Shown here one piece after another: positions 22,538 to 63,267 of a DNA stretch of 64,000 bases (the first letter of the stretch is position 1; each line of letters starts with the position of its first letter). The notes under the pieces were generated by a model. That model made no database searches. It was not told where the DNA came from and worked only from the letters and a program-made list of their open reading frames with translations. The position numbers were made by a program, and so were the translations under genes. The stretch is taken from positions 62,001 to 126,000 of the forward strand of contig SHZF01000001.1 in NCBI GenBank assembly GCA_009692425.1. The letters are read 5' to 3'. The DNA is from Myxococcales bacterium (GTDB lineage Bacteria > Myxococcota_A > UBA9042).

Positions 22538-24313
22538 TCAGCCTTTCGTGAAGACGTACGACTGGCTGAAGGATTGCGGGCTGGGAAGGATCGGCAGGCC
22601 GCGAATCGCCGAGAACTTCGACTTGATGCAGTCCTCGAAGCTGCCGGTTGCGCCGCCGACGCTGACTTCGGTGATGGTGCCCGCCGTGCCGACTATGAAC
22701 ATGACCTTGACCTTGCCCGACAGGTCCGGGCTGTCCTTCAACGCCATTTCGTAGCAGCGCTGCACGGCCGAGTTCTTGCGCGAGATGACCTTGGCGACGT
22801 CGGCCTTGCCCTCGCCGCTGCCCTCCATGCCGAAGTTCTGCATGTCGATCTTGACGAGCTGCTCCTGCTTTTTCGCCTCGACTTTCGTGGCGTCGGCATC
22901 GCGCTCGCCAAAGCCCTTGGCGCCGCCGCCCGCGACCTTTTCCATTGTGCCGCCGCCGCCTCCGCCGCCCTCGAGCTTGAGCGCGCCGCCTGGTCCATTC
23001 AAGTCGTCGCCGCCGCTGTCGCCACCAAACGTCTTGGCCACCACGGTGCCTTCTTCGCCGTCGCCTGCTGCTCCGAACAGTTTCGTCGCCGCACCCGCTG
23101 ACCCGACGAGCGCTCCGGCGATCGACCGTTTCACCACGGCTTCGCGCGCCTGGCGCTTGAGTTCCTCCGGGTCGATCTGCTTGCCGACAGACTGGGGCTT
23201 CTCCTTGGGCGGGACCTTCTTCTTTTCTTCGTCCTTCTCCTTTTCCTGTTCCTTCTTGGCCTGTGCCGAAAGGATGTCGATCTTGGGCTTGTCCTCTTTT
23301 TCTGGCTCCTTCTCTTCGACGAGGACCTCGTAGGTCGAGTTCGCCAATTCTTCCTCGATCGCGCTCTTTTTCAAGAACTTGCCTGTCGTTCGATGGAACA
23401 GGATGGCCTGACCGACGATCGATCCGACCAGCAGGAATGCGATTGCGACAGACACCGTCCAAGCGGAATCCGCGACGAACGGCGACGCCAGTTGACCCAG
23501 CAGCGACTTGCGCGGCACCGCAGGCACCGTGATCGTCTGCTTGAGTATCTGGAACAGCAAAGTATAGGGGCCCAGCGACGCCCGGCCACGCGCCTTCAGC
23601 GGCAGTGACAACTGCAGGGTGTCGCCTTCCAGGCGCGCCAGACCTTTCTGGATGGCCTCCTTTTCGTCAATTGGCAGTGCGCCATCCAACGCGAGCCGCA
23701 CGCCGCAGCCCCTTGGCAGGGCGACGGTGTAATTCGACGTGCCGCGCGGCGGTGTGAACACAGCCGGCGACCCCTTGTACTCGACGTCGGGCAACGCGAT
23801 GGTCGAACGGCCCGACGTCCCAATCGTCACGAAGTCCTTGCCGCGGAACACCTGGTCCGACAGCAGTCGGTCGTCGTGGACGAGGCCGATGCGCAGGACG
23901 GTCTCTTCGCGCGTGACGGTGGGCACCGAATCGCCGCGCACGAACTGGAACATCAGGATGATGTCTTGCCGGGCCACGCTGCCGCCGGTAAAGGCGTCGA
24001 TCGGCACGGCCCTGGTGCCCTTGATGGTCACCGCCCGGGCCTTGGCCGACTCTGCCGCTCCCGGTGCTCCGCCCCGCAACGTCAGGTCCGCGTCGCGCTC
24101 CGCCGGGACGACCGCGTGGTAGGCACCGCCGTGCAGCAGCGCGAGCGCCACGTGCACGGGGAAGTCTGGATAATCCTTTGCATTCACCTGTACCGTGCAA
24201 TCCGGCCGGGAACCGACGGTGATATCGACGCGCCGGTCCAACACCCGCTCTGCAACGATCTGCCCGCGGAAGACCACGCCGATGCGGAGCACGCGGGTCG
24301 TATCCAAGGCCAT
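22538..24313 (-). CDS. FHA-like/transmembrane protein with AgmX/PglI (TonB-like) tail, paralogue 1
   Basis: A 591-residue protein. Two related beta-rich modules, at about 8-125 and 133-245, each begin 'LRIGVVFRGQ' or 'LRIGLVHDDR' and look like degenerate FHA domains. A transmembrane helix follows at about 275-298 (AWTVSVAIAFLLVGSIVGQAIL). Then come a Lys/Glu-rich linker (about 315-390), a Gly-rich part (about 420-470), and a C-terminal AgmX/PglI domain from about 508 with RCYE and DCI cysteines. This is the layout of M. xanthus GltG/GltJ-type proteins that reach across the periplasm. Its last 249 bp are nearly identical to those of the neighbouring paralogue. Confidence 0.87.
   Translation of the reverse strand: MALDTTRVLRIGVVFRGQIVAERVLDRRVDITVGSRPDCTVQVNAKDYPDFPVHVALALLHGGAYHAVVPAERDADLTLRGGAPGAAESAKARAVTIKGTRAVPIDAFTGGSVARQDIILMFQFVRGDSVPTVTREETVLRIGLVHDDRLLSDQVFRGKDFVTIGTSGRSTIALPDVEYKGSPAVFTPPRGTSNYTVALPRGCGVRLALDGALPIDEKEAIQKGLARLEGDTLQLSLPLKARGRASLGPYTLLFQILKQTITVPAVPRKSLLGQLASPFVADSAWTVSVAIAFLLVGSIVGQAILFHRTTGKFLKKSAIEEELANSTYEVLVEEKEPEKEDKPKIDILSAQAKKEQEKEKDEEKKKVPPKEKPQSVGKQIDPEELKRQAREAVVKRSIAGALVGSAGAATKLFGAAGDGEEGTVVAKTFGGDSGGDDLNGPGGALKLEGGGGGGGTMEKVAGGGAKGFGERDADATKVEAKKQEQLVKIDMQNFGMEGSGEGKADVAKVISRKNSAVQRCYEMALKDSPDLSGKVKVMFIVGTAGTITEVSVGGATGSFEDCIKSKFSAIRGLPILPSPQSFSQSYVFTKG
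22550..22798 (-). repeat. 249-bp tract shared with 24778-25026 (copy 1)
   Basis: This end of paralogue 1 matches 24778-25026 at 246 of 249 positions. The three differences are one ATA/ACG codon change (two bases) and one TCG/GCG change. It encodes the AgmX/PglI tail. Outside the tract the two genes quickly become hard to align at the DNA level. Confidence 0.95.
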
Positions 24314-24765
24314 CCCAGAAGCTCCCGGGCCGAAGCCCACCGATTCCAAGCGAGACACACAGTTGCGGGTACTGACGGGCGGCCGCCCCTGCCGATGCCG
24401 CAGAACGCCATGCTACTTACGCGTGACGCGCGGTGTCAAACAACAAACGCAAGCAGTGGGCAGACTCGCGCGGCCTCTCGAGCAGCGTGATCGCGTTGCT
24501 CGTTCCACCACTTCGACGCCCCACGAGTCGTTTCGATCCCGGAAGCTTGCCGCGCCTTCACATTCTCACACGCGGGCGGGACACTCTCACAGGGGCGGGC
24601 GCGCGGCTGCGGCAAGTTGTGGAACTGGCGCGGTGCATCCGGAATCGCCCGCGGCCCGCAACCGACCGCTCAGCCGGGCTGGCGGCCGTGCTACTCGACC
24701 AACCGGACCCTGTAGGCAGAGATTCAGCCCATTCGAGCCGGGATTCAGGCCGCTTGAGCGGGGAT
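24314..24765. other. gap between the two AgmX-tail genes
   Basis: 452 bp without a gene. Near the paralogue 1 start lies a minus-strand promoter (24410-24439). Directly behind the paralogue 2 stop lies a 21-bp imperfect tandem repeat (24721-24769). The middle part is GC-rich with no recognised signal. Confidence 0.6.
24410..24439 (-). promoter_or_regulatory. probable sigma-70 promoter of AgmX-tail paralogue 1
   Basis: On the minus strand, a perfect TTGACA (24439-24434), an 18-bp spacer and TAGCAT (24415-24410). The start codon lies about 97 bp downstream. Confidence 0.55.
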
Positions 24766-24769
24766 TCAG
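24721..24769. repeat. 21-bp imperfect tandem repeat behind AgmX-tail paralogue 2
   Basis: Two 21-bp units beginning GATTCAG (24721 and 24742) and a third GATTCAG at 24763, which covers the stop codon of the minus-strand gene. The units share about 15 of 21 positions. One unit contains the small palindrome CCGCTTGAGCGG. Confidence 0.8.
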
Positions 24770-26544
24770 TTCTTCGAGAAGACGTACGACTGGCTGAAGG
24801 ATTGCGGGCTGGGAAGGATCGGCAGGCCGCGAATCGCCGAGAACTTCGACTTGATGCAGTCCTCGAAGCTGCCGGTTGCGCCGCCGACGCTGACTTCGGT
24901 GATGGTGCCCGCCGTGCCGACCGTGAACATGACCTTGACCTTGCCCGACAGGTCCGGGCTGTCCTTCAACGCCATTTCGTAGCAGCGCTGCACGGCCGAG
25001 TTCTTGCGCGCGATGACCTTGGCGACCTCGCCCTTGCCTTCGCCCTCGCCGCCCGACATTTCGCCGGCAGACAGGTTGACCTTGACCGCCGCCTCTTCCT
25101 TCTTGGCCTCGACCTTCACGTCGTCGGCCTTGCGCTCGCCAAAGCCCTTGGCGCCGCCGGTCTTGACCTTCTCCATCGTGCCGCCGCCGCCGCCGCCGCC
25201 CGCCAGCTTGAGGCCACCGCCCGGGCCCTCGCCCTTGTCGCCGCCAGCGGCGCCTCCGAACGTCTTGGCGACCACCGTGCCGTCTTCGCCGTCGCCTGCG
25301 TCGCCGAACAGCTTTGTTGACGCGCCACCGGCCGCCAACAGGGCTCCAGCAATCGAGTTTTTCGTGATGGCAGCGCGAGCCTGGCGCTTGTTCTCTTCCG
25401 GATCGATAGCCTTGCCCGTGGAGATGGGCTTGTCGGGAGCCTTGTCTGGCGCCTTGTCCGCTGCCTTCTCCTTCTCCTTGGCCTTCTCCTTGGCCTTGAC
25501 TTCGACCGGCACGATTTCCTGCGATTCCTTTTCCGGCTCCTTGTCTTCTTCCTCCGGCTTGATCTCTTCTTTCTGCTCGACCTGTACCTCGTACGTCGAG
25601 TGCGCCAGTTCCTCGTCGCTCTTCGCCTTGCCGAGGTACTTGCCGGTGGAACTCTGGAACAGGATCGCCTGACCGACCACGCCGCCGACCAGCAGCAGCG
25701 ACGTCAGGAACGACACGGTCCACGTCGGTTCCCCGAGGAACGGGCTGGTGATGCGCGCCAAGGTCGAGCGCGCCGCGAACGCAGGCACGATCACGGTCTG
25801 CTTGACGACCTGGAACAAGATCGTGTGCTGGCCCATCTGGGCACGGCCGCGCGTCCCGAGGCCAAAGTGCGCGATGATGTCGTTGCCTTCCTGGCGGGCC
25901 TTGCCCTTGCCCATCAGGTCCTTCAGCTCCATCGGGGAGCCGTCGACCGCCATCTTCACCTTCATGTTGGCGGCGCAACGCATCGTCACCGAACCATCCT
26001 TGTGGTTCGTGAACGAGATCGGCGGACCCTGATAGTCCTCTTCCGGCAACACGATCGAGTTCACCTTTTCGGTGCCGATCGACACTCCCTTCACATCGGG
26101 AAAGATGCGGTCGCTGATAAGCCGCTCGTCGTATACGAGGCCGATGCGCAACACGACGCGTTCGTGCGTCATCGTCGGCTGCGAATCGGCGCGAACGAAC
26201 TGGAACATGATCGATACATCGCCGATCGACACCGAGCCGCCGGCAGCGGTCTCGATGGGAATCGCGCGCTTGCCCTTGATGGTCTTCGTCTCGGTCGTGC
26301 CGGCGCCGCGCAAGCCGATGCGCGCGGCCGGGTCGGCGGGAACCACCAAGTGGAACTGGTTGTTTTCAATGGCCAGCAAGTCGATGCTGTCCGGAAAATC
26401 CGGGTACTGCTTGACCGGAATCTGGATCGTCGATCCGGCCCGCAGGCCGATCGTCACGTCGATGCGGCGATCGAGCACTTCTTCATGTACGATGCTGCCG
26501 TGATACACCACGCCGATGCGGACGTTGCGGTTGGCGCTGCTCAT
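24766..26544 (-). CDS. FHA-like/transmembrane protein with AgmX/PglI (TonB-like) tail, paralogue 2
   Basis: A 592-residue paralogue of the protein at 22538-24313, with the same order of parts: two FHA-like beta modules (VRIGVVYHGS... and VLRIGLVYDER...), a transmembrane helix at about 275-298 (WTVSFLTSLLLVGGVVGQAIL), a Lys/Glu linker, a Gly-rich segment and the AgmX/PglI tail. ATG 26544 fits the first beta strand. A TTGACA-type promoter lies 95 bp upstream. In M. xanthus, proteins with this tail work with the AglRQS motor, and a similar motor set lies at 54493-56925 in this window. That partnership is inferred. Confidence 0.87.
   Translation of the reverse strand: MSSANRNVRIGVVYHGSIVHEEVLDRRIDVTIGLRAGSTIQIPVKQYPDFPDSIDLLAIENNQFHLVVPADPAARIGLRGAGTTETKTIKGKRAIPIETAAGGSVSIGDVSIMFQFVRADSQPTMTHERVVLRIGLVYDERLISDRIFPDVKGVSIGTEKVNSIVLPEEDYQGPPISFTNHKDGSVTMRCAANMKVKMAVDGSPMELKDLMGKGKARQEGNDIIAHFGLGTRGRAQMGQHTILFQVVKQTVIVPAFAARSTLARITSPFLGEPTWTVSFLTSLLLVGGVVGQAILFQSSTGKYLGKAKSDEELAHSTYEVQVEQKEEIKPEEEDKEPEKESQEIVPVEVKAKEKAKEKEKAADKAPDKAPDKPISTGKAIDPEENKRQARAAITKNSIAGALLAAGGASTKLFGDAGDGEDGTVVAKTFGGAAGGDKGEGPGGGLKLAGGGGGGGTMEKVKTGGAKGFGERKADDVKVEAKKEEAAVKVNLSAGEMSGGEGEGKGEVAKVIARKNSAVQRCYEMALKDSPDLSGKVKVMFTVGTAGTITEVSVGGATGSFEDCIKSKFSAIRGLPILPSPQSFSQSYVFSKN
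24778..25026 (-). repeat. 249-bp tract shared with 22550-22798 (copy 2)
   Basis: Direct repeat of the tract at 22550-22798, offset 2228 bp and in the same orientation. The near identity includes third codon positions, which implies recent gene conversion or recombination between the paralogues. Confidence 0.95.
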
Positions 26545-26645
26545 GGGTCCCTCGCTGTCGGTGGAGCGCACGCGGTCTGTCGAGCACGCGGCGTCTTTCG
26601 GAGGCTCTGCGGCGGGTCGGCGGTTGGACGAGGCTCAGCGCGGCG

Positions 26646-53474: not shown

Positions 53475-54164
53475 TCAGTTCGCATCGACCAGCGCCGCCA
53501 GGCGGTCCTCGAACAGATCCGCGAGATCCTGCAGGGTCGACTCCGCATCCAGATCGCGCTCCAGGTTGCGGAAGTAGACAATGACTGTCGCCGCGTCGCG
53601 CAGTTCGACCGACCGCGACAGCAACCGGCGCGGGCTGGCCACTGCAGGCACTTCCTCAAAGACCGCCTTGAGTTTGAGTCCTTCCTTGGCGATGTCGCGC
53701 AGCACCCTCTCGATCGCCTGCCTGGCGCGCGCGCGATCAAACCGAACAGGTGGGTCGTTGCCGGGCTCCAACTCCGCGGCCCTCCGCCACAACTCGTCGG
53801 CGCCAGCGAAGTCGCCGCCCAACTCCTTGCAGATCGCCTCCGTCCGCAGCAGTTGGGGGTCCTCGCTGTCCATGGCGCGCGCCACGGCAATCTCGACAGC
53901 CGCCGCGTCAAAGCGGCCCAATTCCGCCAACAGTTCTGCCCGCATCGTGTACGCGACCAGCCAGTCCGGGTCCCGCTGAACGTACGCGGCCAGAGAAGCG
54001 AGTGCTCCCTCGGCCTCGCCAGCCTCCACCTGCGCTTCTGCCAACCAGCACCACGCGTCGGCGTCACCCGGGATCTCGCCCACCACCTTGCGGGCCAGAT
54101 CCACCGCAGCGGTCGGGTCCTCGTCCATCAACGCCTCAATCTCGTCCATGTCGCTTCGCTTCAC
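53475..54164 (-). CDS. TPR protein with possible degenerate zincin-like tail
   Basis: A 229-residue cytoplasmic protein. Three TPR-like helix pairs cover about 10-115 ('AWCWLAEAQVEAGEAEGALASLAAYVQRDPDW', 'AYTMRAELLAELGRFDAAAVEIAVARAMDSEDPQLL'). The last 90 residues end 'ATVIVYFRNLERDLDAESTLQDLADLFEDRL', which recalls the DUF1025 zincin family, where a similar block is followed by HExxH; here FEDRL stands instead. GTG 54164 is chosen for its GGAGG site 6 bp upstream; ATG 54149 has none. It is divergent from the exbB operon. Confidence 0.68.
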   Translation of the reverse strand: MKRSDMDEIEALMDEDPTAAVDLARKVVGEIPGDADAWCWLAEAQVEAGEAEGALASLAAYVQRDPDWLVAYTMRAELLAELGRFDAAAVEIAVARAMDSEDPQLLRTEAICKELGGDFAGADELWRRAAELEPGNDPPVRFDRARARQAIERVLRDIAKEGLKLKAVFEEVPAVASPRRLLSRSVELRDAATVIVYFRNLERDLDAESTLQDLADLFEDRLAALVDAN

Positions 54165-54492
54165 GCCGCACCTCCGCCCAGCGCAGAACCGCAAGGCCAC
54201 GGGGACGTACCCGACGCACCCGGGCACCGTCAACGGCCTGCGCGCCGAACCCGCCCGTCAGGATTGTCGGCATTCGCGGTGGCGCGCCCACTTGACCCCC
54301 GGGAATCACGGATGCTAAATACCCGACCGTTCGGCTCGTCCGTCTGGGCGCGCGGTGTCGAGAAGCACCGCCCACGCCCCCGACTCGAACCTCGGGGATG
54401 GTCCTTGAGCGAATCGGCGGACGAGCGGAATCTTCATCCCGACCGGGATGACGCTGACGTCCTTGCTAGGCACAACCAGGAGCAGAAGACCG
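54165..54492. other. divergent regulatory gap before the exbB operon
   Basis: 328 bp with no supported gene. It holds the ribosome site of the minus-strand TPR gene and a plus-strand promoter at 54292-54321. The leader after that promoter would be about 165 nt and contains several GC-rich inverted segments, but no known riboswitch was recognised. Confidence 0.55.
54292..54321 (+). promoter_or_regulatory. probable sigma-70 promoter of the exbB-exbD-exbD operon
   Basis: TTGACC at 54292-54297 and TAAATA at 54316-54321 with an 18-bp spacer, the same spacing as three other promoters in this window. The AT-rich -10 stands out in GC-rich DNA. Confidence 0.6.
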
Positions 54493-55158
54493 ATGTTTCA
54501 CAAGATTGCCGAGATCTTCGAAGAAGGCGGCTGGGGCATGTGGCCGATCCTTGGCCACCTCGTCTTCATTCTGGCCATCATGTTCGAGCGCATCTTCGTG
54601 CTCTACATTCGGTCGAGCGTGAAGAAGGAAGAGTTCATCAAGCTCCTCCAGGTGCCGATCCTCAAGGGTGACCTCAACCGCGTGCTCAAGGTCTGCTCGA
54701 CCTACCAGTACCCGCTGGCGCGCATCGTGCACGCCGGTGTCCTCAAGGTGAAGCGCTCCGACGATGAAGTGCAGGCCGCGATGGACGAGGCGTACTTGCG
54801 CGAGATGCCGCAGATTGAAAAGCGCGTCGACTACCTGAACTTGCTCGGCAACACGGCGACCCTCGCTGGTTTGCTCGGCACGATCACGGGTCTGATCAAC
54901 ACGTTCGCCGCGATCGGTCGCCCGGACGTCGACCCGTCCCAGCGCTCGACGCTGCTGTCGCAAGGCATCTCCGAGGCGATGAATTGCACCGCATTCGGCT
55001 TGGCCACCGGCATCATTGGCGTTCTCGCATTCGCCGTCCTCGCCTCGAAGGCGAAGGAGCTGAAGGCCGACATCGATGAAGGCACGGTTCGCGTGCTGAA
55101 TCTGATCGTGGCGAATCGGAACAAGATGGGCGACATCAAGGAAGAGAACGCCGCCTAG
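54493..55158 (+). CDS. ExbB/TolQ/AglR-type proton channel protein
   Basis: A 221-residue MotA/TolQ/ExbB-family membrane protein. Three helices are seen. The first is at about 15-38 (MWPILGHLVFILAIMFERIFVLY). The second and third lie at about 118-145 and 165-190, with the family block 'LLGNTATLAGLLGTITGLINTFAAIG' and 'GISEAMNCTAFGLATGIIGVLAF'. These proteins form the proton-conducting stator that drives TonB, Tol or gliding partners. ATG 54493 was chosen because upstream codons lie before the first helix and are not family-like. Two ExbD-type genes follow, as in aglRQS of M. xanthus. Confidence 0.93.
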   Translation: MFHKIAEIFEEGGWGMWPILGHLVFILAIMFERIFVLYIRSSVKKEEFIKLLQVPILKGDLNRVLKVCSTYQYPLARIVHAGVLKVKRSDDEVQAAMDEAYLREMPQIEKRVDYLNLLGNTATLAGLLGTITGLINTFAAIGRPDVDPSQRSTLLSQGISEAMNCTAFGLATGIIGVLAFAVLASKAKELKADIDEGTVRVLNLIVANRNKMGDIKEENAA

Positions 55159-55612
55159 CCGGTTCGCCGGGTAGTCGTCTCCGGTTCTCGAGAGCTCCAG
55201 CGCCGCGCGTGCCGGAGCGGAATCGCGTTGAGCGCATGACTTCGCTGCGTACCGCAGTCCCGGGGCCACCTCGTGCTCCCGGGGCTGCGGGCGCAGACTC
55301 GCTCGCAGCGCATGGTCAGGGCGAGTTGACGGCGTGGGCTCTGACGGCAAAGGTCCGTCGGTGCGGCAGTCGTCACGCATCGGCCCACCGGTCTGCGCGT
55401 TGGCTTACAAGCTCACGCGGTGGCTCACATAATGGTTAACGTACTCCGTTTGCTTCGCCAGACCACCGCAGTGCCGGCCACAGTGCCGGCCACAGTGCCG
55501 GCCACAGTGCCGGCCACAGTGCCGGCCACAGTGCCGGCCACAGTGCCGGGGGGTCGAGTGACGAGGAAGCGGTCAGTCCCGGGCCGGCAGCGGCTGTCGG
55601 CAGGAGAAGCTC
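55159..55612. other. gap between exbB and the first exbD gene, with tandem repeat
   Basis: 454 bp with no convincing gene. It contains the 12-bp tandem repeat at 55469-55552 and an AGGAG ribosome site just before 55613. A 69-codon frame (55420-55629) reads through the repeat as repeating Pro-Ala-Thr-Val; it overlaps the exbD start and lacks a ribosome site, so it is not called. The gap is long for genes whose products should act together. Confidence 0.6.
55469..55552 (+). repeat. 12-bp tandem repeat, six exact copies plus a partial
   Basis: The unit CAGTGCCGGCCA is repeated six times without change from 55469 to 55540, followed by a diverging seventh. Each unit contains the palindrome GCCGGC. 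It lies in the leader of the exbD genes, 61 bp before the first exbD start. Confidence 0.98.
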
Positions 55613-56236
55613 ATGGGTGGCGGAAGTAGCGGAAAGGGCGGTGTAGCGGACGCGACCCTGAACGTCGTTCCCTTCATCGACCTGCTGGCGTGCACCATCT
55701 GCTTCCTGCTGGTGTCCGCCGTGTGGTCGCAGATGTCGAAAATCGACGTCGATCAGGCGTTGCCGAAGGCGAGCAAGACTCCGCCCAAGGATCCGCCGAA
55801 GCCTGAGCCGAAGATCAACGTTGCGGTGACACCGACCGGCTATCTGGTCAACTTGTTCAATGCCGACAAGATGGCGACGCCGCGGGCCGAACTGGTCGCT
55901 CCGCTCAAGATCAATACGGTGGGCGAGTTCAAGCTGTGCCGCGGCAAGGGTAGCGTTGCCGATTGTCGGGGCTCGCTCGAAACGTTCAAGCGCTATGACA
56001 AGGCAAAGCTCAAGGAGACGCTGATCGGCTTCATGAAGGCCGCGGCTCTCGGCGGCGACAAGATCAAGGTCATGGTCGCGGCCGGCGACAAGGTGCAGTA
56101 CTTACACCTGATTGGAACGCTCGACGCGATCCTGGGCACCTGCGAAGTCGAAACTGACCGATCGACGTGCCTCAAGAGTCCGAGCGTCGGCGACATCAAC
56201 CTGCTGCGCGCGGAAGGCTTCACGACGTTCGACTAG
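55613..56236 (+). CDS. ExbD/TolR-type protein 1
   Basis: A 207-residue ExbD-like protein. A short cytoplasmic N-terminus is followed by one helix with the essential acidic residue (LNVVPFIDLLACTICFLLVSAVW; the Asp is at about residue 23). A Pro/Lys-rich periplasmic linker (KTPPKDPPKPEPK) and a periplasmic domain follow, the latter containing 'KIKVMVAAGDKVQYLHLIGTLDAI'. An unusual block carries Cys residues (LCRGKGSVADCRGS). It would pair with the ExbB-type protein to form the ion-conducting stator. An AGGAG site lies 6-7 bp before ATG. Confidence 0.9.
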   Translation: MGGGSSGKGGVADATLNVVPFIDLLACTICFLLVSAVWSQMSKIDVDQALPKASKTPPKDPPKPEPKINVAVTPTGYLVNLFNADKMATPRAELVAPLKINTVGEFKLCRGKGSVADCRGSLETFKRYDKAKLKETLIGFMKAAALGGDKIKVMVAAGDKVQYLHLIGTLDAILGTCEVETDRSTCLKSPSVGDINLLRAEGFTTFD

Positions 56237-56352
56237 TCCGGTCGGGGCTCAACCTCCGCCGGTCTCTTCGGCTTGGCATCCTAGGGAATCGGCGACTCGG
56301 TCGCCCAGGCAACTCTCAGCGACTCCGTCGCTCAGGTACTTGAGGTAATCAC

Positions 56353-56925
56353 ATGGCCGTTCACCACCCCGGCTCCCGCGCAGGAACAGGCGTCGCACTC
56401 AAGTCGATCCGCGAAGCCGTCATTCACGGCGGTCATGGCGGCACGTTCGCCTCGCTGAACGTCGTCCCGATGATCGATCTCTTCATGATGCTCGTGATCT
56501 TCCTGATTCAGCAGTTCAGCGCATCGGGCGAACTCATGCTGGTCAATCCGAACGTCGCGATGCCGAAGGCCGGAGCCAACGCGGAACTGCTGCGGGCACC
56601 GATGATTGCGTTGACACGAGGCGACGGGAACCAGCCCGGCGACCTCCTGTTTGAGAACAACCGCATCTTGAGCCTCGGCGATGTGAACGAGGTAAAGTTC
56701 CCGAGTTGGGACATCAAGCCGCTGGCCGACGTGCTCAAGAAGCAGTGGCAACTCCAGCAGCAGTCTTCGGACGTCAAGCAGAAGTCGATCCGCAAGGTCA
56801 TCATCCAAGCCGACCGCACCGTGCCGTTTCAGGTCATCAAGATGGTGATGGCGACGTGCGGCCGCAACGAGTTTCGCGAACCGAACTTCGCGATCATGGT
56901 GAACGCCAAGGGCGACGAGGGTTAG
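56353..56925 (+). CDS. ExbD/TolR-type protein 2
   Basis: A 190-residue ExbD-like protein distinct from the one before it. The helix carries Asp in LNVVPMIDLFMMLVIFLIQQF (about residue 42). The periplasmic domain has 'KSIRKVIIQADRTVPFQVIKMVMATCGRNEFREPNFAIMV', the standard ExbD sheet-helix-sheet. Two different ExbD proteins with one ExbB is the composition of the M. xanthus AglR-AglQ-AglS motor and differs from the single ExbD of TonB systems. The 116-bp gap before it contains two near-identical copies of a GCGACTC-GTCGC segment. Confidence 0.92.
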   Translation: MAVHHPGSRAGTGVALKSIREAVIHGGHGGTFASLNVVPMIDLFMMLVIFLIQQFSASGELMLVNPNVAMPKAGANAELLRAPMIALTRGDGNQPGDLLFENNRILSLGDVNEVKFPSWDIKPLADVLKKQWQLQQQSSDVKQKSIRKVIIQADRTVPFQVIKMVMATCGRNEFREPNFAIMVNAKGDEG

Positions 56926-56996
56926 ATCGCCTGCTGACGGGAACGAGTCCGACACGAGATCGACACGAGATCGACGCATTCGGGCAGGAGGCGGCC

Positions 56997-57749
56997 GTGG
57001 CAGGTCAGGCGGGCACGATCGGGTGGGCCCGCCGCATGGCCGGTCGCGCCCTCGCGCTGGTGGCGCTAGCCTCCATAATCGCGCTCGCCTACGCTACCGA
57101 AGCCCACGCCAAGCCGACGACGCGTGTGTACCTGAACGGCGTGCCGACCCCAGTGTTTTTCAGCGATGGCGACAGCTTCACCGTGATGGGCGGGCCCATG
57201 GCGGGGTCGCGGACGCGTCTGGCGGGCTACAACTCCCTGGAGAGCTTCGGACCGGCGCACCGGTGGGGTGCCTGGAACTCCCACGAACTCTACATCAACT
57301 CGAAGATGGCCACGCTGAACGCCCGCCGCGGTGTGTGGCGCTGCACCTCGGACCTGCGGCGGGACGGCTACGGCCGCACCTTGTGGGACTGCCCCGACCT
57401 CGCCTTGGATCAGGTGCGGGAGGGACTGGCGCACGCGATGACGGTCACGGACGATCCCGCGCCGGCGCACTTGCTTACCGCGCAGGTGGCTGCGATCGCC
57501 GAACGGCGCGGCATGTGGGCAAAGGGCGTTCCAACGCATGTCTTGACCTCGCTGCACTCGAACGACGAGGGCTACGAGGGAACCACCTACAATCGCCTCG
57601 TTTCGGTCCAAGACGGGCACTCCGTCAAGTGGCTCCACAAGGATAACTACCCGGAATGTTTTGAAGTGTGCCATGAGGGCGGTTCGTGCATGGTCTACGT
57701 CACGATGAACCGACGCTATGGAGGTTCTCGTGCCGCGTGCGTGCGGTGA
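56997..57749 (+). CDS. exported staphylococcal-nuclease-like protein
   Basis: A 250-residue protein with a signal peptide ending in 'ATEAHA'. The SNase-type fold is seen: FFSDGDSFTV (Ca-site Asp), 'SRTRLAGYNSLESFGP' carrying the Arg and Glu of the active site, and 'RRDGYGRTLW' carrying the second Arg. 'LLTAQVAAIAERRGMW' forms the last helix. The position of SNase Asp40 appears to be Asn. About 60 extra residues with three cysteines follow the domain. GTG 56997 is chosen for a GGAGG site 5 bp before it. It lies in the operon after exbD 2; nuclease activity is probable but not proven. Confidence 0.77.
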   Translation: MAGQAGTIGWARRMAGRALALVALASIIALAYATEAHAKPTTRVYLNGVPTPVFFSDGDSFTVMGGPMAGSRTRLAGYNSLESFGPAHRWGAWNSHELYINSKMATLNARRGVWRCTSDLRRDGYGRTLWDCPDLALDQVREGLAHAMTVTDDPAPAHLLTAQVAAIAERRGMWAKGVPTHVLTSLHSNDEGYEGTTYNRLVSVQDGHSVKWLHKDNYPECFEVCHEGGSCMVYVTMNRRYGGSRAACVR

Positions 57750-57759
57750 AGGCTTGGTG

Positions 57760-58962
57760 ATGGGGAGTTCGACGCTATCATCCGGTTCGTCATGGCCGCG
57801 CGCATGGGCAGCGGTCGTCGCGGGTGCGTCGGTTGTGTCCGCATGCCAAGTTCCGTCGGGTGACCCGCCCGCTGGCTACGAAGCGGACGATCAGGCTTGC
57901 GACGACGGCATCGACAACGACCAGGACGGCCTCATCGATTGCATGGATGTCGATTGCCGCGTGGCATCGACGCTGTGCGGAGAGCGGGTGCCGCTGTACC
58001 GGAACTTCCAGCCGGAGAACGCGCCGGACACGTGCCACGATCAGGTCGACAACGACGACGACGGACTGTTCGATTGCGGCGACCGCAGTTGTTCGGATGT
58101 GCCGGAGACCTGTTGTCGCGTCGAGTTTTCGGACCGGCTCTGCAGCGACGGCATCGACAACGACAGCAATGGCTACACAGATTGTGGCGAATTTACATGC
58201 AAATCCGGATTCGTCGCGGTGTGCATGGATGAGCGCTATTGCCACTTGAAGCCGGACGGCAGCATCGTGCCTGACGACGCTTGCTGCAGCGACGGCAAGG
58301 ACAGTGACGGCGACGGCAAGACGGACTGTCTCGATTCGAATTGCGTCAGCGCCTGTCCCAAGGACGAGGAACTGAGTGTCGCTGCGTGTTCGGACGGCAA
58401 GGACAACAACGGCAACGGCTACGTGGACTGCAAGGATTTCGATTGTCTCAAGAGCAAGGACCCTGCGGTGGCCGCCCTGTGCGCGGTGCCTGTGACGCCG
58501 AAGCCGCCCGAGGATACCGAGGCGGCCTGCATGAACGGCAAGGACGACGATGGCAATGGGTATACCGATTGCGGCGACTTTTCGTGCACCGGGCTGTCGA
58601 TCGAGTCGGTGCAGGCGTATTGCTTGGAAAAGCTCGAAAACACATTCGCGAAGTGCCAAGACGGCAAGGACAACGACGGCAACGGCTACACCGATTGCGA
58701 CGACCGCAGTTGCCGTGCAGGCTACGTGACGTGCACGGACGCCGGACTGTGCGGCTATTTCACGACCAAGGATGTCGCGACTGCGCGAGCCTGCGTGGAG
58801 AGTGTCGCGTCGAGCGTCAAGGAAATGAACGAGTTGTGCTCGAACGGCCTCGACGAAGACCATGACGGGTTTGTCGATTGTGCTGACTTCGACTGCGCAC
58901 GCGCGCCCGGTGTGACGGTGTGTGCGGACAAGCCGCGGATGTGCGGCACCCAATGGAAGTAG
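57760..58962 (+). CDS. exported protein with eight Cys/Asp metal-binding-type repeats
   Basis: A 400-residue protein with an N-terminal signal and likely lipobox (VVSAC, about residue 29). Eight repeats follow, each with the pattern C-x-[DN]-G-x-D-x-[DN]-x-[DN]-G-x-x-D-C-x-[DE]-x-x-C, such as 'CDDGIDNDQDGLIDCMDVDC' and 'CQDGKDNDGNGYTDCDDRSC'. The D-x-[DN]-x-[DN]-G core is an EF-hand-like calcium loop, while the three cysteines per repeat suggest disulfide or metal bridging. Similar stretches are common in Myxococcota surface proteins and recall MopE-type motifs. The next gene carries three copies of the same repeat. Confidence 0.85.
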   Translation: MGSSTLSSGSSWPRAWAAVVAGASVVSACQVPSGDPPAGYEADDQACDDGIDNDQDGLIDCMDVDCRVASTLCGERVPLYRNFQPENAPDTCHDQVDNDDDGLFDCGDRSCSDVPETCCRVEFSDRLCSDGIDNDSNGYTDCGEFTCKSGFVAVCMDERYCHLKPDGSIVPDDACCSDGKDSDGDGKTDCLDSNCVSACPKDEELSVAACSDGKDNNGNGYVDCKDFDCLKSKDPAVAALCAVPVTPKPPEDTEAACMNGKDDDGNGYTDCGDFSCTGLSIESVQAYCLEKLENTFAKCQDGKDNDGNGYTDCDDRSCRAGYVTCTDAGLCGYFTTKDVATARACVESVASSVKEMNELCSNGLDEDHDGFVDCADFDCARAPGVTVCADKPRMCGTQWK

Positions 58963-58986
58963 GCCGCTGCGTAGATCGCCGCATTT

Positions 58987-59034
58987 GGCGGCTGACGATG
59001 AAGGCGGCTGACGATGAAGGCGGTGCACGATGAA
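58987..59034 (+). repeat. 16-bp triplicate repeat over the start codon of the barrel gene
   Basis: Units at 58987-59002 and 59003-59018 are identical (GGCGGCTGACGATGAA). The third, 59019-59034, differs at three positions and contains the ATG of the next gene. Each unit carries an ACGATGAA, so the initiation region is present in three copies. Confidence 0.9.
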
Positions 59035-60616
59035 TAACTTGACGCTCATGCGTGCACTCGCGGGACTTACGGCTGCGGCGGCGGTATGGGCGCCGGCCGC
59101 CTTTGCCATCGACGGCCCTGGTGCGGCGACGCCGACCGGCGCAGGTGCGGGCGGGGAGCTACGCGAGACCGTGTGCAGCGACCGTCGCGACGACGACGGC
59201 GACGGCCTAACGGATTGTGCCGACCACGACTGCGCGGGCAACGTTGCGTGCAACGTGGGCGCCGGAAGCGAGAACTCCGATGCGCGCTGCAGCGACTGGT
59301 TCGACAATGATGGCGACGGCTTCATCGATTGCGACGACGCCGACTGCGAAGGCGGCGCCGTGACCGTGTGCAAGGGCTCGTGGCGCGGCCCGCTCGACGG
59401 AGGCGCGGCTGCAGTTGGACCTCCGGAGGACGACATGCCCGAACTGAAAGAGGGGATGTCGGTCGAAGACCTGCTCGGCAAGGGCGCAGACAAGGACGGC
59501 GAGCGCAGCGACGAGGTGTGTTCAGACGGCTTGGACAACGACCGTGACGGGCGCATCGACTGCGCTGACCTCGGCTGTCGCTTCGACCCCGACGTCAACG
59601 TGTGCCGGAGCAGTCCAGGAATGCGCTTCAGCATCAGTGGCGCGATCGAGGCGTCGCACGAACTGGTGAAGTCGCAGTCCGACGTTCGGTTTTCCCGACT
59701 CCAACTGCGCACGTTCGGGCAGATTCCGGGCGTCGACAGTTCGTTCTACTACGTCGGCATGCGCGGAGAGCGCACGCCGCGGGTCACCTTTGCAATGTTC
59801 CAGGTGCCGATCGGTGCCCGCGGACACTTCATCGGCGTGAACAGCGGCGGCGGCGGCTTGTCGATGCAGCCGGTGCTGTCGTCGACGAAACACATGTTGA
59901 TCGAGCCAGCCTACTACGTGTACAGCGCGTTCCAGCCGGGCAACGGGGCCGCCGTCGAGGCATCGGGTCCGCTTGCCGAGACGCTGCGACTGGAATACCG
60001 CACCTACGTTGCTGGCGGTTCCGGTCGCTCGACGGGCAGCGTTGGCGGGACGTACTTCGTCAACGACGCACGCATCTTCACCTGGTCGACCGGCGTGGCG
60101 CTGCGGATCCATCCGTTCGGGTACATCAGCCGCCTGGAGTCGCCGTTCCTGTACACCCCAGCTGCGACGGCCCTTTCCATCGACTTCGGGGCGAAGTTCG
60201 ACCAACGGCCCCAAGAACGGTTCCCGGCCGTGCACGCAGGCACGTTTTTCCGATCCGGCCGATTCGTCGCTCTGGCCGAAGTCTATGCCAAGCGGAATCT
60301 CGACATCGATTTCGACGGCATCGCGTACAACGTCCAGGCGGGCTTTCTTGCGTGGCCGAAGCGAGTCCTGATTGCAGCAGATTTTGGCGAGTTCCTTGCG
60401 CGCGGCACCATGGCCGGGTTGAAGGACAAGCCGGACTCCGAGGTGAAGAAGCAGCGCGACGAACGCCAGTGGCGCGCCGCCGCGCACTACTTCTTCTACC
60501 GCAGCGTCGGCGTCCTGTCGGCGGTCTATCGTGACCGCACGTTGGCGCCGGCGATCGGCGACAGCGTTCCCACCCGGGAGCGCGAGGCCAGCATGATCGT
60601 GCAGTTCCACTTCTAG
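59030..60616 (+). CDS. outer-membrane beta-barrel protein with three N-terminal Cys/Asp repeats
   Basis: A 528-residue protein with a signal peptide (to about 27, AAFA). Three repeats of the same type as in the preceding gene follow ('CSDRRDDDGDGLTDCADHDC', 'CSDWFDNDGDGFIDCDDADC', 'CSDGLDNDRDGRIDCADLGC'). The rest (about 205-528) alternates amphipathic strands and ends with phenylalanine ('SMIVQFHF'), the usual outer-membrane barrel signature. It resembles porin-like families of Myxococcota. It probably ends the exbB operon. The repeat region should face the periplasm or the surface near the barrel mouth. Confidence 0.83.
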   Translation: MNNLTLMRALAGLTAAAAVWAPAAFAIDGPGAATPTGAGAGGELRETVCSDRRDDDGDGLTDCADHDCAGNVACNVGAGSENSDARCSDWFDNDGDGFIDCDDADCEGGAVTVCKGSWRGPLDGGAAAVGPPEDDMPELKEGMSVEDLLGKGADKDGERSDEVCSDGLDNDRDGRIDCADLGCRFDPDVNVCRSSPGMRFSISGAIEASHELVKSQSDVRFSRLQLRTFGQIPGVDSSFYYVGMRGERTPRVTFAMFQVPIGARGHFIGVNSGGGGLSMQPVLSSTKHMLIEPAYYVYSAFQPGNGAAVEASGPLAETLRLEYRTYVAGGSGRSTGSVGGTYFVNDARIFTWSTGVALRIHPFGYISRLESPFLYTPAATALSIDFGAKFDQRPQERFPAVHAGTFFRSGRFVALAEVYAKRNLDIDFDGIAYNVQAGFLAWPKRVLIAADFGEFLARGTMAGLKDKPDSEVKKQRDERQWRAAAHYFFYRSVGVLSAVYRDRTLAPAIGDSVPTREREASMIVQFHF

Positions 60617-60765
60617 ATTGGACTGCGGCTGAGCGTGCCCTGGGGTCTGGAAACCCATTGATTTGACGACGAGCGTCGCGCTGCTGCCGACGCGACCGCG
60701 GAAAACCCTCTGCCAGAGCGAACCCTGATCCGTGCACCGCGAGCGCGGGCACGGCGGGGGCGGTC

Positions 60766-63267
60766 TTGCAACGGTGGGGATTCTTGGCGGGCAGGGTGTG
60801 GGCACCGGGCGCAGCGGCAGCGACCGTGGGCGCCGCTGCCGGCGTCGCCGTGCCGTTGTGGTGGCCGCTGCTCGTGGCGCTGACGGTGTGGTGTGCTGCG
60901 TTGGCGGGATTGGCGTGGCGGGCACGTCGGGTCGTGGTCTGCCGGGCGGCTGCGTGGACGGCAATGAGCGCAGGCATGGGTTGCCTTGCCGCCCTGCCGG
61001 TCGAGCCCCTGCCCGTCGTTGTCCTCGCCCAGCCGACCGCCATCCACACGTTGGTCGCAGTCGAAGAGTCCACCGCGACACGCTTCGGCAGCCAGGTCAC
61101 GGTCGCTTGGCTCCGATCTGACCGCAGCGTGCCGTTCGCCGGTTCGCGGGCCCTGGGAGCCGTACGACTCACGATGCGCGCACCAGGATTCGTCGGCGCA
61201 GTTCGGTGCGGCGAAACCGTGCGTGTCGTCGGCCGAATGGAGCCTCTGGCAGGCTATGCCAACCCGCGTGCGTGGGATCCCCGGCCCGACGCCCTGCGCG
61301 CCGGAATCGCCGGGGTGCTGGACGTGGACGGGTCCGGGAGCCTGGCAGTCGTCGACGCACGTTGGTGGCGGCATGGGCTGGTCACCACTGCTCACTGCAC
61401 GCTGGCAAGGCCCTTTGGCCACGCCCGCCGCTACCTCGCGGCCCGGGTTCGCGCCAGCCTGCCCGCGTGGGAGGCTGGGGTCGTCAATGCGTTCGCGCTC
61501 GGCGACACGAGTTCCCTCGACCCGGCGCTGTCCGCGGTGCTCCGCGCCAACGGGACGGCACACATCATCGCCGTGTCGGGCAGCCACTTGACGTTGGTTG
61601 TCGCAGTCCTCGCCTGGTTCCTGGTGCACGCCATCGGGGCCGCGATGCCTGGCGTGTTCCGCCGCTGTTCCCGCCGCATGTGCCTCGCACTCGTCTGCGT
61701 GAGCGCGAGTTGGAGCTATGCGGCCCTCACCGGCGCTCCGCCAAGCGCCGTGCGGGCAGCATTCATGGTCTCGGTCGTCGGCGTCGTGCGCGCGACGGCT
61801 CACGCCGCCGACGTCGTCGAAGCGCTCGGCTTTGCGGTGTGCGCGATGATCGCCCTCGACCCGGAAACCGTGTGCGACGAAGGCTGGCTGCTGTCGGTCG
61901 CAGGGGTGATCGGTCTCTTGCGTGCCGGAGAATTGTGGCAGGCAGACGTCCGCGCGACCGCAACCCGGACGCTGGCTGGGCGGGTGCGTGCAGGGGTTGC
62001 CGGGTGCGCGCAGGCCAGCCTGGCCGCATCGATGGCGACGGCCCCCGTCGTGACGCTCGCATTCGGGAGCCTCGCCCTCACCGGACCCGTCGCCAACTTT
62101 TTCGCCGCACCGTACGCCGGCGCGATCGCATTGCCGTGGAGCCTCTTCGCAACCGGGGTCGCGGCCATCTCCAACGGCGCAGTCGCCTCAGCCACGGCCG
62201 CCGTCACCCCATGGGTCCTGTGGCCTCTGCGAGCGCTCGCATCGACTTCGCCGGCGGACTGGGCCGTGTGGTGGCCCGTGTCTCCGGGCGGCTGGTGCGC
62301 CGTGTGCGCCCTGCCGGCGTTGTTGTGGATGGCCTCGTGGACGGCGAAGAAGTGCGTCGCCATCGGTTGCGTCGGTCTTGTCGGGTTGGCCGGCGAGGGA
62401 ATGGCCCGGCACGACACTGCGCGGCCGCTCGTCGAAGCCTGGTTCCTCGATGTCGGCCATGGTGACGCCACGCTGCTGCGCCTGGCCGACGGGCGCACGA
62501 TGCTGGTCGATGCCGGCGGCGTGGCCGGCGACGGTGGCCGGAGTGGGGATCTTGCCGTGGCACCTGTCCTGCACGGCCTCGGGATCGGCAGAATCGACGT
62601 GCTGGTGCTCTCGCACGCGCACCCTGACCACGGCAACGGCCTGGTCTCCATCGTGCGCGCGTTCGACATCGGAGAGTTCTGGTGGAATGGCCAGGGCCCG
62701 CTGACGCCCGAGATCACGGCGGCCGTCGCAGAAATGACACGGCGACGGGTGCCCGTGCGCCGATTCGCCGCACGAGACCCCCGCATGTTCGCATTCGGCG
62801 CTTCGACTGTGCGCGTGCTGTGGCCTCGCGGGGTCGGGGCGCCGTTCGAGTCCCACCTCGGCCAGAACGACAACTCGCTCGTGCTCGAGGTGTCGATGGG
62901 GCCGACGCGCTTGCTCCTGACCGGGGACATCGAGTTCGCCGCGGAGTCGGCCCTGGTCGCCCGCGGTGCCGCTCGCCACGCCGACATCGTCAAGGTGCCC
63001 CACCACGGCAGCTTGACGTCGAGTTCGCCGGAGTGGCTTGCAGCCGTGAGTCCGAAGCTTGCCATTGCCAGCGCCCGGCCTTGGGCGCGGTGGCCGCTGC
63101 CACATTCCGAAGTGCGGGCCAGGTACGTCGCGGCTGGCGCTCCTTTGTGGGAAACGTGGCGCGGAATGGTCCACGTCGAGTTCGGTCCGGACGGCGTCGC
63201 CGCGTCACAAGGGGGACGATCGTTCCATTTGGCGCGCACCGTCCGCGCCTGTAGCGAGGGAACATGA
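60766..63267 (+). CDS. comEC: ComEC/Rec2 DNA-uptake channel
   Basis: An 833-residue protein of the competence channel family that moves single-stranded DNA across the inner membrane. An N-terminal hydrophobic block and OB-like part (about 75-165) precede the ComEC channel ('AFALGDTSSLDPALSAVLRANGTAHIIAVSGSHLTLVVAVL' and about ten helices). A C-terminal metallo-beta-lactamase domain starts at about 560 with FLDVGHGDATLL and SHAHPDHGNG, then 'LLLTGDIEF' and 'KVPHHGSLTSS'. TTG 60766 is the first start in frame; a later GTG is possible. The HxHxDH motif is complete, so the domain may be an active nuclease. Confidence 0.95.
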   Translation: MQRWGFLAGRVWAPGAAAATVGAAAGVAVPLWWPLLVALTVWCAALAGLAWRARRVVVCRAAAWTAMSAGMGCLAALPVEPLPVVVLAQPTAIHTLVAVEESTATRFGSQVTVAWLRSDRSVPFAGSRALGAVRLTMRAPGFVGAVRCGETVRVVGRMEPLAGYANPRAWDPRPDALRAGIAGVLDVDGSGSLAVVDARWWRHGLVTTAHCTLARPFGHARRYLAARVRASLPAWEAGVVNAFALGDTSSLDPALSAVLRANGTAHIIAVSGSHLTLVVAVLAWFLVHAIGAAMPGVFRRCSRRMCLALVCVSASWSYAALTGAPPSAVRAAFMVSVVGVVRATAHAADVVEALGFAVCAMIALDPETVCDEGWLLSVAGVIGLLRAGELWQADVRATATRTLAGRVRAGVAGCAQASLAASMATAPVVTLAFGSLALTGPVANFFAAPYAGAIALPWSLFATGVAAISNGAVASATAAVTPWVLWPLRALASTSPADWAVWWPVSPGGWCAVCALPALLWMASWTAKKCVAIGCVGLVGLAGEGMARHDTARPLVEAWFLDVGHGDATLLRLADGRTMLVDAGGVAGDGGRSGDLAVAPVLHGLGIGRIDVLVLSHAHPDHGNGLVSIVRAFDIGEFWWNGQGPLTPEITAAVAEMTRRRVPVRRFAARDPRMFAFGASTVRVLWPRGVGAPFESHLGQNDNSLVLEVSMGPTRLLLTGDIEFAAESALVARGAARHADIVKVPHHGSLTSSSPEWLAAVSPKLAIASARPWARWPLPHSEVRARYVAAGAPLWETWRGMVHVEFGPDGVAASQGGRSFHLARTVRACSEGT

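Follow-up and report, generated by a model that had tools for sequence, protein, structure and literature searches.

Do six co-oriented genes that join an ExbB-ExbD motor to a nuclease-like protein, a repeat protein and an outer-membrane barrel encode one machine, or are they two gene sets lying side by side? The question is raised by positions 54493-60616 of a 64,000-nucleotide stretch of Myxococcales DNA, hereafter the window (positions 62001-126000 of contig C132, in a genome of 4.94 Mb, 137 contigs and 96% completeness). A preliminary description had read these genes as a single new proton-driven envelope machine. Our results rather favour, with a probability of roughly 0.75, two separately inherited gene sets, a motor trio and a three-gene unit, which have been neighbours since the ancestor of one family. 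The family compared comprises 22 genomes in 10 genera; its named relatives, found in a scan of named genomes, are uncultured Myxococcales metagenome-assembled genomes (MAGs), many of them apparently lake-derived.

Two gene sets, together in one family and apart elsewhere

The six genes are present and co-oriented as described, and profiles and structure comparisons confirmed the protein types read from them: one ExbB, two ExbD with the channel Asp, a secreted protein resembling staphylococcal nuclease (SNase), a protein with eight repeats and a barrel with three. They are:

54493..55158, + strand: ExbB/TolQ-like motor subunit, likely AglR-type, 221 aa (Pfam PF01618, MotA_ExbB, E 9.7e-25; tree)
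55613..56236, + strand: ExbD1 (AglQ position in the trio), channel Asp D23, four conserved periplasmic Cys (Pfam PF02472, E 1.8e-10; alignment)
56353..56925, + strand: ExbD2 (AglS position in the trio), channel Asp D42 (Pfam PF02472, E 1.4e-12; alignment)
57036..57749, + strand: secreted SNase-fold protein with an extra Cys-rich C-terminal part (Foldseek 1syb; PDB profile match to thermonuclease; conserved residues)
57760..58962 (longer open reading frame from 57718), + strand: probable lipoprotein with eight acidic double-disulfide repeats (NF033662 x8; lipobox-type Cys)
59030..60616, + strand: porin-like barrel of the outer membrane; signal peptide, three repeats at the N terminus, Phe at the C terminus (NF033662 x3; AlphaFold2 (AF2) model; Foldseek)

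Outside the family, the two halves of this block are found without each other. The ExbB-ExbD1-ExbD2 trio occurs across Myxococcota, in Polyangium, Sorangium, Minicystis, Sandaracinaceae, Myxococcaceae and many MAGs, and an SNase, lipoprotein or barrel gene stands beside it at none of the 59 loci outside the family (L133-L191). Conversely, a barrel-only profile run over 331 Myxococcota genomes finds the barrel in 54, one copy each, 33 of which lie outside the family and belong to 14 other families; our first thought, that the SNase, lipoprotein and barrel genes were private to the family, was rejected on this result. Twenty outside loci of the unit were read. The order SNase, lipoprotein, barrel is kept in all 18 where the three genes are readable, their flanks are unrelated and vary by lineage, and neither ComEC nor an adjacent motor was seen at any of the 20. 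Separation in both directions, motor without unit and unit without adjacent motor, is the very outcome that the preliminary description had named as contradicting its single machine.

The distances involved are large. All 30 barrel-bearing outside genomes that were checked possess some ExbB relative, none of them near the barrel, and 14 have only a more distant ExbB type (<150 bits). In G196, a single contig of 10.3 Mb, the barrel is placed at 8.79 Mb; the ExbB closest in type, with its motor, is at 0.58 Mb, and 508 kb from the barrel there is an ExbB of a more distant type. In G093 an ExbB relative lies 403 kb from the barrel; in the remainder of the 30, ExbB relatives and barrel are on different contigs. 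As the barrel tree mostly follows taxonomic families, the family itself being unresolved in it, these sequences suggest vertical inheritance of the barrel.

Within the family, on the other hand, ExbB, ExbD1, ExbD2, SNase, lipoprotein and barrel follow in the same order on 18/18 contigs spanning ExbB to barrel. Contig ends allowed for, the block is kept in 20/21 other family genomes, far beyond chance, and ExbB is 87-92% identical across the 10 genera. Two genomes (G008, G014) have the set interrupted by a contig break at a position that fits, and an apparent lack of the three-gene unit in G002 was rejected, its contig stopping just after ExbD2. One database entry titled Klebsiella pneumoniae (CAMDBH010000001.1, L117) contains this Myxococcota locus, its ExbB sharing 90% identity with that of the window, and looks mislabelled.

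The conserved block is larger than six genes. The divergent TPR gene, which adjoins ExbB in most family loci, ComEC and one gene past ComEC are also kept, and between two genera additional upstream genes are kept too. Because the block is this wide, synteny alone does not single out the six genes. The comEC neighbour pointed out earlier holds within the family, where ComEC comes next on every contig long enough, and fails at the 20 loci outside it. The further features of this region are:

53475..54233, - strand: TPR protein, divergent neighbour (Pfam TPR_19, E 2.5e-9)
54292..54321, + strand: promoter candidate TTGACC-N18-TAAATA of the preliminary description, unsupported (literal match; promoter scan)
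55469..55549, no strand: tandem repeat, 12 bp x 6.8, in the ExbB-ExbD1 gap (repeat scan)
60766..63267, + strand: ComEC/Rec2 (TIGR00361, 207 bits against a cut-off of 190)

One operon transcribed from one promoter is not established, because a gap of 454 bp holding the tandem repeat separates ExbB from ExbD1; a gap of 134-598 bp exists at this place in every family genome read. The letters of the proposed promoter are present at 54292-54321, but TAAATA agrees with only 3/6 of the -10 consensus and the candidate is absent among the promoter-like sites found. The promoter scan of 54200-60900 gave one such site against 0.7 expected by chance, that is, nothing beyond chance. All 6.8 copies of the 12-bp repeat are error-free.

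A motor likely of the AglRQS type and its candidate arms

Judging from its sequences, the trio is likely a motor of the AglRQS type. The channel Asp residues, D23 in ExbD1 and D42 in ExbD2, are invariant in 14 orthologues of each. The window ExbB falls inside the Myxococcota trio clade, apart from E. coli TolQ, E. coli ExbB and the three other ExbB of its own genome, with a Shimodaira-Hasegawa-like approximate likelihood ratio test (SH-aLRT) value of 99, in a quick tree of 115 rows with long outgroup branches; the likeness to AglRQS is read from the features of the trio. The tolQ model gives the window ExbB 61 bits for a cut-off of 221. The reading of a stator of AglRQS make-up rather than of TonB-ExbB-ExbD, put forward in the preliminary description, is in agreement with this separation, and a grouping with the standard TolQR/ExbBD systems is not seen in the tree.

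Gene order and sizes in the trio agree with those published for AglRQS (PMC3169522). Moreover, residue 28 is the channel Asp of the first ExbD in those trios of the clade that come from Myxococcaceae, and D28N is the experimental mutation of the channel Asp of AglQ (PMC3858216). Like AglRQS of Myxococcus xanthus, which acts in Agl-Glt gliding and with Nfs at the spore coat, the window motor has one TolQ/ExbB-like and two TolR/ExbD-like subunits in the order R-Q-S, both ExbD carry the membrane Asp, the ExbB is separate from TolQR and ExbBD, and GltG-like arms are encoded away from the motor (PMC3169522, PMC3858216). It differs from AglRQS, which stands apart, by the SNase-lipoprotein-barrel genes that follow it, and by a longer ExbD1 with four periplasmic Cys. 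No AglRQS structure was found in the PDB.

One ExbB with two ExbD is not in itself diagnostic of Agl, because Xanthomonas campestris has tonB-exbB-exbD1-exbD2 (PMC3551730). Both clusters show one ExbB and two tandem ExbD, whereas that of the window is without a TonB gene and its ExbB lies outside the E. coli ExbB/TolQ group.

Related motors vary in their arrangement. A second ExbD1-like gene (216-320 bits; L254-L259), with no ExbB or ExbD2 adjoining, is found in six family genomes. Several MAGs have a motor cluster with two different ExbB followed by two ExbD (L170, L172, L174-L178, L182, L185, L187), which hints at a mixed ExbB ring. In Polyangiaceae, Myxococcaceae and Sandaracinaceae, many loci (L134-L161, L183-L184) pair the trio head to head with another, divergent ExbB-ExbD set. 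At L141 and L148 it adjoins the ftsA-ftsZ end of the cell-division cluster; in the window, it is the mraZ end of that cluster to which the trio is close.

Two proteins with TonB-like AgmX tails had been noticed elsewhere in the window, and both indeed exceed the NF033768 cut-off:

24766..26571, - strand: GltG-like TonB-type arm (NF033760 E 7.4e-22, under cut-off; NF033768 49 bits, over cut-off)
22538..24358, - strand: second GltG-like TonB-type arm, in tandem with the first (NF033760 E 3.7e-25, under cut-off; NF033768 46.7 bits, over cut-off)

Each member of this tandem pair, about 30 kb from the motor, reads as a soluble N-terminal part followed by a single membrane span, then a charged spanner and finally the TonB-like AgmX tail. 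The genome holds four proteins with an AgmX/PglI tail over the cut-off, the pair and one each on contigs C60 and C80, and all four align to GltG over most of its length (NF033760 E 7e-22 to 2e-41), at 78-143 bits for an equivalog cut-off of 650. Relatives of the arms are present in 22/22 family genomes, mostly as a tandem pair, and lie on the contig of the motor in three. Compared with the Agl-Glt system, GltG matches in the window genome are far under the equivalog cut-off and GltE is not found over its own; GltE exceeds its cut-off in 0/21 family genomes (best 83 vs 225 bits), and GltG does so in 0/237 genomes of the phylum.

The two tandem arms (22538-24358 and 24766-26571) are 60% identical overall yet nearly the same in their last ~80 residues, a pattern that would fit gene conversion, or selection acting on a tail they share. 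At seven places in the family (G010:C26, G014:C199, G015:C88, G016:C81, G017:C276, G019:C307, G001:C51) a further GltG-like gene adjoins a TPR gene weakly matching GltE; this pair is perhaps a remnant of a Glt core.

What the motor moves can be approached from its number. The genome has four ExbB in total, and two ExbD only at the window locus. Because there is only one two-ExbD motor, service to all four arms is the parsimonious reading, and the window motor most likely drives GltG-like arms encoded elsewhere. AglRQS likewise serves both Glt and Nfs in M. xanthus (PMC3858216).

The three-gene unit

The product of the fourth gene has the fold of staphylococcal nuclease. Its Pfam PF00565 match does not reach the cut-off (16.5 bits vs 21), and the assignment comes from the predicted structure (AF2 predicted local distance difference test score of 88), which Foldseek matches to staphylococcal nuclease 1syb (E 1.4e-4, probability 1.00), and from a PDB profile match to thermonuclease (E 0.0035). 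The equivalents of D19, D21, R35, E43, D83, Y85 and R87 are invariant in 16 sequences from many families, and the catalytic R35, E43 and R87 are shared with the staphylococcal enzyme. It differs from that enzyme by its Cys-rich C-terminal extra, its export signal, its fixed gene partners and two substitutions, D40 to Asn and P42 to Leu. The start at ATG 57036 is preferred, with a signal peptide ending in AHA, and a start at GTG 56997 is possible.

The repeat protein contains exactly eight NF033662 stretches (E 2.6e-56, 187 bits for a cut-off of 41) and most likely starts at ATG 57760. It is probably a lipoprotein, because a lipobox-type Cys is conserved in the family alignment. Three stretches of the same repeat (E 1.2e-29, 101.7 bits for the same cut-off of 41) head the barrel protein, which ends in Phe and, in most orthologues, carries an export signal.

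The AF2 model of the barrel protein is poor over the repeats and shows a strand-rich C-terminal domain of about 16 strands. Its best Foldseek matches are the general porins OmpU, OmpC, OmpF and chitoporin (E down to 3e-11, target-normalised template modelling score about 0.5-0.67), and no PDB sequence match was found. The window barrel shares with these diffusion porins its ~16 strands and C-terminal Phe, and differs by the three acidic double-disulfide repeats placed ahead and by a sequence identity of ~10%. At about 16 strands, the model is not that of a TonB-dependent receptor, with its 22-strand barrel and plug domain. General porins work by diffusion and are not known to need energy, and the barrel fold therefore calls for no motor.

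Nothing relevant was found in the literature on the repeat family or on a nuclease-porin unit, and the three-gene unit is apparently undescribed so far.

Competing readings and significance

Two ancient gene sets would thus have become neighbours in the ancestor of one uncultured freshwater Myxococcota family and stayed together. The first set would form an inner-membrane proton motor of AglRQS type, with, by analogy, five ExbB surrounding one ExbD1 and one ExbD2, driving the tandem GltG-like arms ~30 kb off and the two others in the genome. The second is most likely a surface nuclease with a porin for nucleic-acid scavenging. The exported SNase-fold protein would cleave nucleic acid either at the outer membrane or beyond it; the lipoprotein and the head of the barrel protein, which bear the same acidic, disulfide-bonded and probably calcium-binding repeats, could form a surface assembly holding the nuclease or its substrate; and the porin-type barrel may admit the cleavage products by diffusion.

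Four observations weigh against this account: (i) the complete adjacency of the two sets on the 18 spanning contigs of the family, (ii) the tight spacing in one genus, where ExbD2 and SNase overlap and lipoprotein and barrel are 9-10 bp apart, which fits one function there, (iii) a different ExbB-ExbD pair 2.9 kb upstream of the unit in G113 (L268), past an opposite-strand gene, and (iv) the replacement of D40, a calcium ligand in staphylococcal nuclease, by Asn in 16/16 sequences.

Because of this last replacement, nuclease activity is not certain, and the main rival for the three-gene unit is a structural or adhesive role, in which the SNase-fold protein would be a non-catalytic binder and the repeat lipoprotein and barrel a calcium-dependent surface layer. 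P42 is also Leu in 16/16, six Cys are invariant, and the repeats make up most of the lipoprotein and stand at the front of the barrel protein, all in favour of such a layer. The equivalents of R35, E43, R87, D19 and D21 are nevertheless all kept, a sign of catalysis or, at the minimum, of nucleic-acid binding, and we regard this alternative as possible, with about one chance in four.

The single machine would require that the family had co-opted its AglRQS-type motor for moving or energising the nuclease, lipoprotein and barrel on the cell surface, either directly or by way of the GltG-like arms, as a force-driven surface nuclease or a nucleic-acid importer. Strict adjacency and order in 10 genera, the tight spacing in one of them, the ExbB-ExbD pair near the unit in G113 and arms found in every family genome, in the window itself and in three cases on the motor's contig could all be explained in this way. 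Such a coupling is nonetheless unlikely: 14 other families have the unit with no motor adjacent, and the motor in turn occurs without the unit; the conserved synteny extends to TPR, ComEC and further neighbours; the barrel is of a general-porin type; and its head is alike in sequence inside and outside the family, no family-specific motor-contact segment being seen. Motor-driven DNA uptake, with nuclease, barrel and ComEC degrading and importing DNA, is more improbable still, since ComEC, although next on every family contig reaching it and only 36-75 bp away in one genus, is beside the unit at 0/20 outside loci, and duplex DNA is too wide to pass through a 16-strand porin.

With two separately inherited sets as the preferred reading, two points of interest are left, the undescribed three-gene unit and the reason why one family fixed it to a motor. 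The phylum-wide and strictly ordered nuclease-lipoprotein-porin unit is a concrete target for studying how Myxococcota may use extracellular or prey nucleic acid. A single motor, likely of AglRQS type, together with four GltG-like arms would offer a simple setting for how one motor serves several outputs, and the same genome suits the question whether two ExbD-like subunits form a heterodimer.

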